Positions 15,026-30,613 of a stretch of 64,000 bases of DNA are shown here, piece after piece. Below the pieces are notes generated by a model that was not told where the DNA came from, did not search any database, and worked only from the letters and a program-made list of their open reading frames with translations. The translations under genes were made by a program, and so were the position numbers. The DNA is from Veillonella rodentium (GTDB taxonomy: Bacteria > Bacillota > Negativicutes > Veillonellales > Veillonellaceae): NCBI RefSeq assembly GCF_900187285.1, contig NZ_LT906470.1, forward strand, positions 1,684,001-1,748,000, given 5' to 3'. Each line of letters opens with the position of its first letter. The first letter of the stretch is position 1.

Positions 15026-17263
15026 TTACTGTTTCTTTGTGAAAGTTACTTTCACAATCTGCCAGAAGAAGACCAATGCCCCCAATATCATGATAGTATC
15101 GCCCACCATACGAAGCCAACGCAGATTTTGTAACAGCGGCTGCTGCATGAAGTCTTCGCTGCGAGCGAGCCACAAGCCTTGTGTAACGCTTGCCCAGCCT
15201 TGAATCAAACCGATCGGCAGTAAGCTGATAAGAACCATTAACGCAAGGCCCCAGTTCAATGCCCAGAAGCCGAATTTCATCAACTTGTCGTTAAACTCCA
15301 CCTCAGGTCGAATGTAACGGGCGATGAGGAATACAAAGCCCAGGCTGAGGAACCCGTATACACCGAACAACGCCGTATGAGCATGAACGGCCGTCGTATT
15401 TAGACCTTGAATATAGAACAGTGAAACCGGCATGTTGATAAGGAAGCCGAAGATACCTGCACCCACCAGATTCCAGAAGGACACCGCAATGAAACAGTAT
15501 ACAGGCCATTTTAGTCGATGCATCCAAGGCGCACTGTGAAGGCGTGTATAATTTTCAAATGCTTCATACCCCAAGAGAACAAGAGGCACTACTTCCAATG
15601 CGGAGAATGATGCCCCTGTGGCCACCACAGTCGATGTAACACCGGTAAAGTAAAGATGATGGAATGTCCCCGGAATACCGCCGATGAGATAAATAGCACC
15701 GGACGAGATCGCCGCGATTGTACCGGCACGATATGATACAAGTCCGAGGGTTACAAAGATAAACGCCATTAAAGTAGTGGAGAATACTTCAAAGAAACCT
15801 TCTACCCATAGATGAATCACCCACCAGCGCCAGTATTCCATGATTGCCAAGTGGCTGTGTTCCCCGTAAAAAAGCCCAGGACCATAGAAAATACCGACCA
15901 TGACAACCGAGAAGATAAACGCGGCTATGAGGTTTTTATCCCCTTTGTTTTTGAAAGCTCCGATGATGCTGCGCACCATGAGCACAAGCCAGAACAGAAT
16001 ACCGATATATTCAATCCATTGCCATACGCGGCCCAGCTCGATGTACTCATATCCCTGGTGGCCCAAGTAGAAGTTCAAAGCCGCCGGAATTTCATGAGCG
16101 ACACCTAAGTATGTGCCCGCAAACGACCCCACTACGAGAACAACGAGTGCCCAGAATAAAATGTCCACCCCAAGTTTTTGGAATTTCGGATCCTTACCGC
16201 CGTTAATGATCGGCGCCAAGAATAAACCGGCACTCAAAAAGGACATTGCAATCCAGAACAAGGACGCCTGAATATGCCATGTACGAGCAATAGAATACGG
16301 GAAGTATTGCGCCAACGGAATACCATAAAAGGCCTGTCCCTCTACGGTGTAATGCGCAATGATACCGCCCATACCGAGCTGTAATAAAAATAATGCCAAA
16401 ATCGTAAATAAATATTTTCCCAAAGACCGCTGAGACGGTGTGAGATTTAATTTGGAAATCGGATCTTCCGCAGGCGGTGTCAATTCATGATCATCCTGTT
16501 TGCGACCGAACGCCCACATCCATACAACGATACCGATACCGCAAAGTAAAATAATAACACTCACAACGGACCAGGCAATGCTTTCCGGTGTCGGATTGTG
16601 ATCTAACAACGGTTCATGCGGCCAGTTGTTCGTATATGTTGCATCTGTCCCCGGACGTTGAGCGGATGCCATCCACGTAGTCCAGAAGAAAAACCGCGCC
16701 ATATCGATACGGTCCTGTAATTCCGGCAACGTATTATCCTTCATCGCGAAATGATCACGCGTTTCGGATAATTTCGGGTTGTCTCCATAAAGTTCAACAA
16801 AATATTGCCCAGTTATATTCATCGCCGCAATACGTTCCGGTGAAAGCACTACGGTTCCGTCTTCGCGAACGGCGCTCTTGAAGTACTCCGTTTTAACGAC
16901 TTCTTTAACAGCAGCCTGCTGAGCAGGACCTAACTGTTCATAAAGAACACCGAAGGCCTGTTGAGACTTGATGTCGAGCATAACGGACACCTCTTTGTGC
17001 AGCCAGTCAGCTGTCCAGTCAGGCGCCTGATATGCACCATGCCCCAATACGGTACCTACGGATTGACCGCCTGTAGATTGCCAAGCCGACTGACCATGCA
17101 GAATATCCTCTTTAGTAAATAAGACCTGTCCATCTCGAGAAACATACGCTGTCGGCACCGGCGGTGCTTGATGATACACATCAGTACCCAGATAACCGAG
17201 AATCGAAAATCCGATAACAAGAACAGCTACCACGGCTATCCAATACTTTTTGTATTCACCCAT
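15026..17263 (-). CDS. norB: Quinol-dependent nitric oxide reductase (qNor, single subunit)
   Basis: Reduces two NO to N2O with quinol electrons at the cytoplasmic membrane. 745 residues from ATG 17263, which has a perfect AAAGGAGG; the frame to 17329 is unsupported. N-terminal membrane anchor (residues 10-30), an extra-cytoplasmic domain to about 220 carrying HGQSAWQSTGGQ and GHGAYQAPDW typical of the qNor N-terminal extension without a haem c CxxCH, then about twelve spans of the haem-copper oxidase fold. Haem and non-haem Fe ligands lie in HIQASLFWIAM, GTFHHLYFTG and AHTALFGVYG. Monocistronic, with promoter-like elements and a terminator. In a fermenter this is NO detoxification rather than denitrification (inference). 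Confidence 0.95.
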   Translation of the reverse strand: MGEYKKYWIAVVAVLVIGFSILGYLGTDVYHQAPPVPTAYVSRDGQVLFTKEDILHGQSAWQSTGGQSVGTVLGHGAYQAPDWTADWLHKEVSVMLDIKSQQAFGVLYEQLGPAQQAAVKEVVKTEYFKSAVREDGTVVLSPERIAAMNITGQYFVELYGDNPKLSETRDHFAMKDNTLPELQDRIDMARFFFWTTWMASAQRPGTDATYTNNWPHEPLLDHNPTPESIAWSVVSVIILLCGIGIVVWMWAFGRKQDDHELTPPAEDPISKLNLTPSQRSLGKYLFTILALFLLQLGMGGIIAHYTVEGQAFYGIPLAQYFPYSIARTWHIQASLFWIAMSFLSAGLFLAPIINGGKDPKFQKLGVDILFWALVVLVVGSFAGTYLGVAHEIPAALNFYLGHQGYEYIELGRVWQWIEYIGILFWLVLMVRSIIGAFKNKGDKNLIAAFIFSVVMVGIFYGPGLFYGEHSHLAIMEYWRWWVIHLWVEGFFEVFSTTLMAFIFVTLGLVSYRAGTIAAISSGAIYLIGGIPGTFHHLYFTGVTSTVVATGASFSALEVVPLVLLGYEAFENYTRLHSAPWMHRLKWPVYCFIAVSFWNLVGAGIFGFLINMPVSLFYIQGLNTTAVHAHTALFGVYGFLSLGFVFLIARYIRPEVEFNDKLMKFGFWALNWGLALMVLISLLPIGLIQGWASVTQGLWLARSEDFMQQPLLQNLRWLRMVGDTIMILGALVFFWQIVKVTFTKKQ

Positions 17264-27782: not shown

Positions 27783-28445
27783 CTATAATGCCTCAAAGGT
27801 CATAACATCCTGAATTCCGGGACACTCGCGCATAAACTGAACCGTAATGGGATTGACCACGGTATCCGTAGTAATAACCATAACCGCATCCTTATGCCTG
27901 CCCTTGCGGAATACGCGCATCGTCGCAATATTGATATCCGATTCGCTGAGCGCCTGGCTGACAAGAGAAATAGCACCGGGACGATCCTCATGAAATACGA
28001 CGAGCGTAAATTCGTCCCCTGTAATGGACATGTCATTTCCATCCACTTCGGTAATCATGATTTGACCACCGCCGAGCGAACGTCCCACAACAGCCATATG
28101 CCGATTATGCTCATCATACATATCAAATTGCACCACATTCGGATGCCCCACATCAAGCGGAGACTCGATAAACTTATACTCCATGCCCGCCTGCTGCGCC
28201 ATAGTATCGGCAATGCGAATATTCGCATCATCCTCCTTAAAGCCCAACAAGCCGCCCAAGAGCGCCTTATCCGTACCATGTCCCTTATACGTCTTAGCGA
28301 AGGAACCGTATAATGTGAGGTCCACCTTCTTTGGCGTAGACCTGAATATGCAGCGCGCCATCTTTCCCAGCCGCGCGGCCCCTGCCGTATGCGAACTGGA
28401 CGGTCCGATCATCACGGGTCCTATAATATCAAAAATACTATTCAT
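27783..28445 (-). CDS. sdaAB: L-serine dehydratase, beta subunit with ACT domain
   Basis: 220 residues from MNSIFDIIGPV at 28445 (GAGG 6 nt upstream). The longer frame to 28475 is not supported. GPSSSHTAGAARLG is the family signature. The C-terminal ~75 residues are an ACT domain (TLVVFHEDRPGAISLVSQAL) that probably senses serine. Preceded by a structured leader (28519-28584) and a promoter. Confidence 0.95.
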   Translation of the reverse strand: MNSIFDIIGPVMIGPSSSHTAGAARLGKMARCIFRSTPKKVDLTLYGSFAKTYKGHGTDKALLGGLLGFKEDDANIRIADTMAQQAGMEYKFIESPLDVGHPNVVQFDMYDEHNRHMAVVGRSLGGGQIMITEVDGNDMSITGDEFTLVVFHEDRPGAISLVSQALSESDINIATMRVFRKGRHKDAVMVITTDTVVNPITVQFMRECPGIQDVMTFEAL

Positions 28446-28518
28446 AATCGCCTCTACAGTAGATATACAAAACAATTTAAAACGATAATTACCATACCGA
28501 TACCATTTTCATATAACC

Positions 28519-28618: not shown

Positions 28619-28670
28619 TATGTACATTGACGGCATATTTGTACGTCTTCAATAGACTTTCTTTATTCTT

Positions 28671-28862
28671 GTGAAAGTTATCTTAGAAGGATTGTATATT
28701 GACGGGGCCCAGATTTCATTACTACATTTTAATTAAAAAGGAAGGGCTATACTTCTTTGCTCCTCGTGACCTGATGTCGCTGCATAAGTATAGCCCTTCC
28801 TTTTTATAACTGTAGATGTGAAGGTGTCCCATCAATATACTGTATCTATAAATAACTTTCAC
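28671..28862. repeat. 192-nt nested inverted-repeat element (MITE-like or large structured RNA)
   Basis: The outer ends are GTGAAAGTTAT and its reverse complement ATAACTTTCAC. Similarity continues inward with mismatches for about 40 nt per arm (shared TATATTGA and GGG). The inner part is a perfect 20-bp inverted repeat (28735-28754 against 28786-28805, core GGAAGGGCTATACTT) around a 31-nt loop. There is no clear target-site duplication and no coding capacity. Confidence 0.7.
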
Positions 28863-28865
28863 AGG

Positions 28866-28901
28866 AAAAAAACGCACCCCGGGAGAGAGGCCCAGGGTGC
28901 G
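28866..28901 (-). terminator. hcp terminator
   Basis: Minus strand CGCACCC / GGGTGCG stem strengthened by inner GG/CC pairs, followed by T7, about 80 nt after the hcp stop. Confidence 0.85.
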
Positions 28902-28981: not shown

Positions 28982-30547
28982 TTAGCCCAAGATAGCTTTC
29001 ATATCAGCTTCCGGAGTTGTAATTGGATGCAATTGGAATTTTTCTACCAAAATGTTCAATACATTACTGGAGAAGAATTTAGGCAAGGAAGGTCCGATGT
29101 AAATGTTACGGATACCCAATGCCAACAAGGTTAACAGGATACATACCGCTTTTTGTTCGTACCAGGACAATACCAATGTTAATGGCAAGTCGTTTACGTC
29201 ACATTCAAATGCACCGGCCAAGGCTACTGCTACTTGAATAGCGGAGTAGGCATCGTTACATTGACCCATATCAAGGATACGAGGGATACCGCCGATTTCG
29301 CCGATATTCATGTCGTTGAAACGGAATTTGCCGCAAGCCAATGTCAATACAACAGTATCATCAGGAGTCTGTTTTACGAATTCAGTGTAGTAGTTACGGC
29401 CTACTTTAGCACCGTCACAACCACCTACCAAGAAGAAGTGTTTAATAGCACCGGCTTTTACAGCATCGATTACTTTATCAGCAATACCTAATACTGTGCC
29501 ATGACCGAAACCTGTAGTCACTTCATGACCGCCGTTAATGCCTGTGAAATGTTGAGCTTCCTTGTAGCCGCCCAATTCGATAGCACGGTTGATAACTGCA
29601 CTGAAATCTTTAGTGCCGTCTTCTTTTTCTTCGATATGTGCACAACCGTCGAAACCTACCATATCTGTAGTGAAGATATTTGCTTTGTAGTTTTCTTTAG
29701 GCGGCATAATGCAGTTTGTAGTGAACAGGAATGCGCCAGGAACATCAACGAATTCTTTTTGTTGGTTTTGCCATGCGGTACCGAAGTTACCTTTCAATTG
29801 AGGATGTTTCTTCAATTCAGGGTACGCGTGGCAAGGCAACATTTCACCGTGAGTATAGATATTTACGCCTTTACCGTCAGTTTGTTCCAATAATTGTTTC
29901 AAATCATGAAGGTCATGACCGGTTACAACGATGAAAGGACCAGGTTCTACAGTCAAAGGAACTGTAGTCGGTACAGGTGTACCATATGTTTCAGTATTAG
30001 CTTTATCAAGAACAGCCATACATTTCAAGTTGATATGACCGAATTCCATCAAAAGATCAAGCCATTCTTCAGCGCTGTGATCTTTAGCGAATTCTACCAT
30101 GCCTTTAACGAACCAAGCGTCAACATCAGCATCGTGGAAACCGAGGCGAGCAGCATGCCATGCGTATGCAGCCATACCACGCATACCTAACAATAATGTG
30201 GAGCGAAGGGATACGATGTCTTCTTCACCTTTCCACAATTGTTCCCAATCGAAATTTTGTTGAACGCTGTCCACTTTTGCGTGGTAAGCATTCACTTCGT
30301 CAATGAATTCTTGAACGCGGTCTTCAGAGAAGTTTACGTTTGTTACACACATGAACAAACCGCGCATAATATAATCGATACCTTCTTTAGTGTGACCTTT
30401 TACGTCTAACGCACGAGCCAATCCCACCAAAGCTGCAGTTAATTCGTCTTGTTTGTTTGCAACCGGTGCAGTTTTACCACATACACCTTGTACTGTACAG
30501 CCACCTGGTGCTGCTGATTGTTCACATTGATAACAGAACATACTCAT
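28982..30547 (-). CDS. hcp: Hydroxylamine reductase / hybrid cluster protein
   Basis: 521 residues from MSMFCYQCEQ at 30547, with perfect AGGAGG; the frame to 30583 is unsupported. N-terminal Fe-S cysteines are Cys5, Cys8, Cys17 and Cys23. Hybrid-cluster ligands lie in the C-terminal half (GGCDG, LTLACGKFRF, MGQCND). Family members reduce hydroxylamine or NO and act in nitrosative-stress defence. Divergent from a Crp/Fnr regulator across a dyad-rich spacer. With norB (15026) it suggests this organism meets NO. Confidence 0.95.
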   Translation of the reverse strand: MSMFCYQCEQSAAPGGCTVQGVCGKTAPVANKQDELTAALVGLARALDVKGHTKEGIDYIMRGLFMCVTNVNFSEDRVQEFIDEVNAYHAKVDSVQQNFDWEQLWKGEEDIVSLRSTLLLGMRGMAAYAWHAARLGFHDADVDAWFVKGMVEFAKDHSAEEWLDLLMEFGHINLKCMAVLDKANTETYGTPVPTTVPLTVEPGPFIVVTGHDLHDLKQLLEQTDGKGVNIYTHGEMLPCHAYPELKKHPQLKGNFGTAWQNQQKEFVDVPGAFLFTTNCIMPPKENYKANIFTTDMVGFDGCAHIEEKEDGTKDFSAVINRAIELGGYKEAQHFTGINGGHEVTTGFGHGTVLGIADKVIDAVKAGAIKHFFLVGGCDGAKVGRNYYTEFVKQTPDDTVVLTLACGKFRFNDMNIGEIGGIPRILDMGQCNDAYSAIQVAVALAGAFECDVNDLPLTLVLSWYEQKAVCILLTLLALGIRNIYIGPSLPKFFSSNVLNILVEKFQLHPITTPEADMKAILG

Positions 30548-30561
30548 TGAAAATCCTCCTT

Positions 30562-30578
30562 TGCGAGACTTTCTCGCA
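30562..30578 (-). promoter_or_regulatory. Stem-loop in the hcp 5' leader next to the ribosome-binding site
   Basis: TGCGAGA / TCTCGCA with a 3-nt loop, immediately upstream of the hcp Shine-Dalgarno. It could stabilise the mRNA or modulate initiation. Confidence 0.45.
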
Positions 30579-30613
30579 GTCAAGCTTAAAATCTATAAAA
30601 CCTGTACGATACA

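Follow-up and report, generated by a model that had tools for sequence, protein, structure and literature searches.

A nested palindrome beside hcp

Between hcp and an sdaAB-type gene of Veillonella rodentium lies a nested palindrome of 192 nucleotides, and the question it raises is what kind of sequence this is. The original prediction, made from the letters of the 64,000-nucleotide stretch of DNA analysed here (the window), proposed a non-autonomous mobile element (MITE) or a large structured RNA.

The architecture is largely as described (Table 1). The outer ends, GTGAAAGTTAT (28671–28681) and ATAACTTTCAC (28852–28862), are present and extend to a 20-nt pair that is 90% complementary. The inner inverted repeat is perfect (100% complementary) and encloses the 31-nt loop given for it, but it measures 21 bp and not 20 bp; nested between this stem and the outermost arms is a third pair. 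Folded as RNA, the palindrome reaches −79.6 kcal/mol, compared with −37.2 (s.d. 3.75) for 200 dinucleotide shuffles, none of which folds equally well (z = −11.3). The end motif TTGTGAAAGTT, said to recur at two other places in the window, has one further exact copy, at 15037–15047 (0.04 expected by chance), and the second named place holds no exact match. No element was detected at 15037–15047.

Table 1 Features of the hairpin and its neighbours, in window positions
Feature	Position	Strand	Basis
Whole nested palindrome of the original prediction	28671..28862	.	Inverted-repeat search and fold
Element core, polarity from GGGGCC side to GTCCC side	28693..28841	+	R1 153.9 bits, E 2.8e-33; R2 141.1 bits
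Outer core stem, 5′ arm GTATATTGACGGG, adjoining the conserved GGGGCC junction	28694..28706	+	Inverted-repeat pair and alignment
Outer core stem, 3′ arm CCCATCAATATAC	28828..28840	+	Inverted-repeat pair and alignment
Inner perfect stem, 5′ arm	28734..28754	+	Inverted repeat; covariation
Inner perfect stem, 3′ arm	28786..28806	+	Inverted repeat; covariation
Conserved loop motif GCTCC	28759..28763	+	Alignments A1 and A3
Conserved loop motif GTCGC	28776..28780	+	Alignments A1 and A3
Outermost left arm, same direction as G008 orthologue	28662..28681	+	Inverted-repeat pair; intergenic comparison
Outermost right arm, same direction as G008 orthologue	28852..28871	+	Inverted-repeat pair; intergenic comparison
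Segment inverted relative to seven orthologues, limits approximate	28696..28838	.	Read from intergenic sequences
hcp, hydroxylamine reductase / prismane protein (neighbour)	28982..30583	-	NF003658 740.6 bits, PF03063
sdaAB-type L-serine ammonia-lyase beta subunit (neighbour), start codon provisional	27783..28475	-	TIGR00719 202.5 bits

A dispersed family in Veillonella

A plain DNA search detects relatives of the hairpin in its own genome and, among 60 relatives, in 9, which all belong to one genus; the five stretches in named genome records that match its exact loop string are all from Veillonella. A covariance model (R1) locates multiple dispersed copies in the own genome, at seven places with E ≤ 3e-6, and matches 13 of 14 Veillonella genomes at E ≤ 0.01, the exception being G004. 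The further copies envisaged in the original prediction are thus present in the same genome and in relatives, and a single-copy palindrome is ruled out.

Outside the genus the family thins out. R1 matches 5 of the 14 genomes in the rest of the taxonomic family at 1e-4, the match in G020 being weak and made by R1 only. A wider model, R2, adds G018, the only match independent of a training set that included four sequences from outside the genus. R1 and R2 combined match five of seven genomes in g3, the one genome in g4 and none of six in g2. With stricter filters, R2 finds nothing in 33 genomes from other families of the order.

For the analyses below, one genome per species was compared and open reading frames were taken from a simple script, not from annotation. 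The 122 matches listed, less 14 that are antisense to the same places, leave 108 copies in 74 of 82 sources. These were sorted into 28 groups of loci, which include loci seen in a single genome and of which group 4 may join neighbouring loci; counts are given by group because the same locus sampled in several species does not yield independent copies.

An Rfam search of the window returned only tRNAs. The same search of nine loci at E ≤ 1 gave four sub-threshold matches, none at its family's gathering score, ruling out a known RNA family at Rfam thresholds. A phage or plasmid origin was also rejected, with no match in plasmid or phage records and one exact loop string absent from viral contigs. 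No paper in the literature on Veillonella repeats, palindromes and RNAs was recognised as describing the hairpin family, as far as the available portions of these sources extend. The supplement of an intergenic RNA survey of 26 genomes may list it; the available text of that survey assigns the gltD, ldh2, ilvD and potE motifs to Veillonella or to its order or class (PMC8632094). The ncRNAs in the available part of PMC7160235 are other than this family.

Structure and covariation of the core

The core of the element, of about 149 nt, comprises two nested stems whose sequence varies freely while pairing is kept, and a set of unpaired motifs that are fixed across copies (GGGGCC, CTACAACTTNATTA, GCTCC...GTCGC and GTCCC). 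From the 5′ side, the outer stem leads into GGGGCC and a weakly paired stretch containing CTACAACTTNATTA, and then into the first arm of the long inner stem. Between the two inner arms lie GCTCC, a small hairpin whose length varies, and GTCGC. The second inner arm is followed by another weakly paired stretch, GTCCC and the other arm of the outer stem.

Covariance analysis of homologous copies, named in the original prediction as a check, reveals strong covariation. The consensus fold from 23 aligned copies has compensatory changes in 23 of 35 pairs. For a named structure of 43 pairs over 23 distinct copies, 88.5% of cells are paired, double-changed cells number 152 compared with 47.2 in shuffles, and the covariation score is 0.427 compared with 0.122, a value reached by none of 500 shuffles; sliding the pairing partners abolishes the signal. 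Within the helix of the inner perfect stem, 14 of 17 pairs change on both sides among the 23 copies.

The pairing of the inner stem is DNA-like. Among 67 distinct inner stems (copies of at least 55 bits, with two lacking a recognised loop dropped and identical stems merged), there are 1,365 Watson–Crick pairs and, read on the plus strand, 13 G·T, 29 A·C and 24 other mismatches, and in alignment A1, outside a conserved wobble pair, G·U and A·C each occur 11 times. On neither strand do these counts give the strong G·U excess expected of an RNA helix drifting through wobble; RNA folding with wobble tolerance was accordingly set aside, the counts giving no plus-strand RNA signal. Copies at least 90% alike (17 sequence pairs) differ by 10 double and 12 single changes. 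Since double changes are a product of template switching, covariation alone is no proof of RNA function.

These observations bear on the idea that the hairpins are dispersed copies of a regulatory structured RNA, either an sRNA or a riboswitch-like class. Strong covariation and fixed internal-loop motifs would suit such a class. Set against them are the low G·U, the lack of an Rfam match at threshold and the lack of a consistent neighbouring gene, and we regard a regulatory RNA as quite improbable.

Several copies depart from the standard form. An unusual small loop hairpin is common to dispersed copies of one genome, in L112 and L128 (G013) and again in L113 and L129 (G006). L077 and L122, from close species, have a common outer stem at one locus and different inner stems and loops, which suggests, from their sequences, an exchange of the hairpin inside. 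Half-elements (L007 1275–1339 and its neighbours, L023 and L025) all end near the same loop position and look as if one arm had been removed from the hairpin tip.

Position and polarity among genes

The core is intergenic and its polarity is fixed. In 24 of 28 groups, one or more copies have their 5′ edge near the end of a gene in the same orientation (stop codon at −60 to +45 nt from that edge), a closeness to gene 3′ ends like that of the SPRITE repeats discussed below; the opposite arrangement is found in 3 of 28. Among the 108 copies, neighbours less than 1 kb apart are convergent in 22 cases, tandem in 10 and divergent in none. Because convergent pairs combine the two orientations at a single locus, there is no support for a replication-strand rule behind the polarity. 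The host genes are diverse (hcp, dnaB, purL-like, TrkA, MFS, SfsA, NirA-like and malic enzyme), with no consistent neighbour. A degenerate convergent pair of elements is seen in G000 and G008 (L080 4080–4243 and L159), at a locus that seems to carry a full copy in other species.

Such positions invite a role at the RNA level, in which the upstream gene and the hairpin would share a transcript and the hairpin would act, as has been proposed for SPRITE, as a transcription terminator or as a stabiliser of the mRNA 3′ end. The 24 to 3 bias in stop codon placement speaks for this, as do a TTTTT run in the 3′ half of 64 of the 108 copies and an AAAAA run in the 5′ half of 69. At dnaB in G009, where the copy lacks its right arm and no other terminator is seen ahead of the next gene, the inner hairpin may serve. 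Against it, the T run is missing from 44 of 108 copies, so termination is rejected as a universal role, and one member of the pair in groups 2, 3 and 7 sits at a gene 5′ end rather than a 3′ end. Read by eye, dnaB in G003 and G011 has a separate terminator-like hairpin further downstream, and at hcp the element lies beyond the gene's own hairpin. The inverted copies of host DNA described below would also be left unexplained, and we consider a 3′-end role unlikely.

The same placement recalls integron attC, in which case the hairpin would be a single-stranded-DNA recombination site whose folded strand a putative recombinase recognises. The hairpins sit right after genes, their stems vary with pairing kept and little wobble, their unpaired motifs stay constant and one of the two strands is singled out; G009 carries two additional genes between its group 2 copies. 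Against it, the loci read show no gene cassettes moving between copies, adjacent hairpins frequently converge, and it is the loop and the inner junction that hold the conserved motifs. We give an attC-like site only a slim chance. The two extra genes (L107 4219–7172), of 251 and 455 codons, are followed by downstream genes of 250 and 462 codons, and the two gene pairs are possible duplicates.

Inverted copies of the host flank

In about half of the copies, 30–190 nt of the 5′ flank reappear in inverted form 3′ of the core. Outside the core, 60 of 108 copies (15 of 28 groups) have flanks that match one another better than any of 40 foreign flanks; a mirrored flank is undetectable by this comparison in the other 48 copies, several of which look intact, and the signal of the window copy is marginal (20 versus 19). 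Examples over long aligned stretches are L131 (82 of 108 positions), L130 (129 of 207) and L165 (128 of 176).

The mirroring has a direction. Among the 52 of 108 copies that were scored (score of at least 17, arms at similar distance), mirrored coding sequence is on the 5′ side only in 33, on both sides in 2, on the 3′ side only in none and on neither side in 17. The left arms are genuine coding DNA, belonging to the TrkA_C domain in L131 (to residue 214 of 215) and to the GATase_5 domain in L156 (to residue 1246 of 1247); these end codons recur inverted beyond the core, with little codon-position bias in the identity. Group 7, read by eye, has a promoter and start codon as its native flank and still keeps the 5′-side rule; its locus lacks the element in G013 and G006. 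In the group 7 copy of G010 (L228), also read by eye, the outer palindrome is left and the whole inner hairpin is gone.

Changes in the distal arms are mostly confined to the right arm (2,294, compared with 672 on the left only), and concerted changes number 197, where about 70 are expected. The distal right arms thus mostly decay alone, which indicates that the long arms are mainly scars and are not maintained.

Alleles across species

The hcp–sdaAB gap is readable in 13 of 14 genomes and spans 172 to 1,008 bp. The core is absent from it in G001, G005, G006 and G013 and is reduced to a remnant in G002. In the eight genomes with a full core, the GGGGCC side faces hcp in seven and sdaAB only in the window genome, where the core is inverted relative both to the same subtype in G008, G003, G010 and G011 and to another subtype in G007, G009 and G012; the window copy thus breaks the polarity of the family as kept by its orthologues. 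The outermost arms keep their direction although the window core is reversed, which we read, from the alleles, as a flip of the core between its arms. The gap in G009 reaches 1,008 bp (172–680 bp in the 12 others) because it contains three tandem units of about 228 nt, which are half-elements cut at the loop (L029 1200–2300).

Seven genomes have the element at dnaB, and four others with a readable gene end do not. Element-free alleles, which the original prediction had named as something to look for, therefore occur in relatives at the hcp–sdaAB, dnaB and group 7 loci. For the group 28 copy no clean empty site was obtained, the DNA next to it differing in G000 by about 1 kb. No direct target-site duplication is seen in the filled and element-free alleles read, which have diverged too far to give a clean junction.

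An ordinary non-autonomous DNA transposon, or MITE, moved by a host transposase would likewise be dispersed in the genus, less than 200 bp long and palindromic at its ends, and would leave element-free alleles. The terminal stems are, however, locus-specific, and substitutions in the outer stems are paired, the stem sequence tracking the host flank. No direct target-site duplication is seen in the alleles read, diverged as these are, and Y1 transposases (PF01797) are not co-distributed with the copies: they are not found in G012 or G001, with 22 and 15 element matches listed (R1 counts per genome include antisense matches to the same place), and have 14 matches in G004, which has no element. 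The original prediction therefore holds in so far as this is a multi-copy structured family, with covariation and element-free alleles; the MITE half of it fails on the locus-specific terminal stems, and we think a MITE very improbable.

Y1 transposases do not track copies across the genus, and a Y1 or RAYT enzyme is ruled out as a required partner. The distribution of reverse transcriptases (PF00078), found in 6 of 28 family genomes and absent from the element-rich G003, G007, G009, G010, G011 and G012, likewise rules out a reverse transcriptase, as would go with a retron or other reverse-transcribed element, in that role.

A proposed fold-back copying mechanism

On balance, and with confidence barely above even, we favour a family of interspersed hairpin elements in which a strand folds back and copies host DNA one way, template switching keeping the arms matched. 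There is good support for the existence of the family, for its structure and polarity and for the inverted copies of host DNA; self-primed fold-back copying and the mode of core spread are what we infer from them.

In this mechanism, the core's plus strand, attached by its 5′ end to host DNA, would fold into the hairpin, whose 3′ end would then be extended with the host flank as template. The inverted copy would be made in this way, and synthesis would afterwards return to the chromosome. Within the palindrome, recurrent template switching would keep the inner arms perfectly matched and would occasionally flip a segment between the arms, a proposed cause of the window core lying opposite to its orthologues. 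Insertions would survive mainly where the side receiving the copy faces free spacer, which may explain why copies lie after stop codons and why pairs converge. Template switching is reported to create and maintain hairpins (PMC8794818) and to homogenise arms and invert spacers (PMC8604942) in the available parts of these papers. Some observations weigh against this reading: no insertion event emerged between close strains in a comparison of one genome per species, 48 of 108 copies show no mirrored flank when scored against foreign flanks, the window copy reverses the polarity of its orthologues, and the distal right arms mostly decay alone. So do the invariant loop motifs, which imply a sequence-specific partner; none was found among the Y1 transposases and reverse transcriptases tested.

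The fold-back family might further represent a new kind of mobile element: a protein-free, strand-specific hairpin that joins the host by its 5′ end and primes itself, whose signature would be an inverted duplication of the 5′ flank with no direct target-site duplication, and which template switching would maintain and reorient. We offer this tentatively and think it rather less probable than its opposite. To our knowledge, directional inverted copies of host gene ends or promoters are the signature of no insertion family.

If the fold-back reading is true, a dispersed bacterial repeat leaves inverted copies of gene ends and promoters, and repeats can spread and reshape genomes in one direction. 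The palindromes, being of different age, would offer a natural series in which to test how hairpins arise, persist and become inverted through template switching. A warning comes with them, as RNA function does not necessarily follow from covariation in such elements.

Comparison with known systems

Like MITEs, the Veillonella hairpins are short, palindromic, dispersed and non-coding, but they have no conserved terminal repeat, and neither a direct duplication nor a partner transposase was found (Y1 tested). REP and BIME elements, which are associated with RAYT transposases, are palindromes that follow genes, often as inverted pairs. The Veillonella hairpins resemble them in both respects and differ in size and motifs, and the Y1 domain is not co-distributed with them.

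Similar in general character are SPRITE, RUP and BOX, the small interspersed structured repeats of Streptococcus pneumoniae, which are likewise taxon-restricted; in the available text of their description, SPRITE is enriched near gene 3′ ends and terminator-like, and BOX is modular (PMC3049150). BOX and RUP are given there terminal inverted repeats and target-site duplications, whereas the Veillonella hairpin has locus-specific end stems that mirror host DNA, and a fixed polarity (PMC3049150). Repetitive hairpin and double-hairpin elements of mitochondria are similarly mobile-looking, gene-free, limited to close relatives and often clustered; they belong to different genomes, and the available part of their description reports no directional inverted copy of a flank (PMC2800124). 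Quasipalindromes shaped by template switching have in common with the Veillonella hairpins the homogenisation of arms, apparent double substitutions and inversion of the spacer (PMC8794818, PMC8604942). As presented in the available parts of those papers, quasipalindromes are unrelated single loci, whereas the Veillonella hairpins form a family spread over different loci, in which both the motifs and the direction of copying are fixed.
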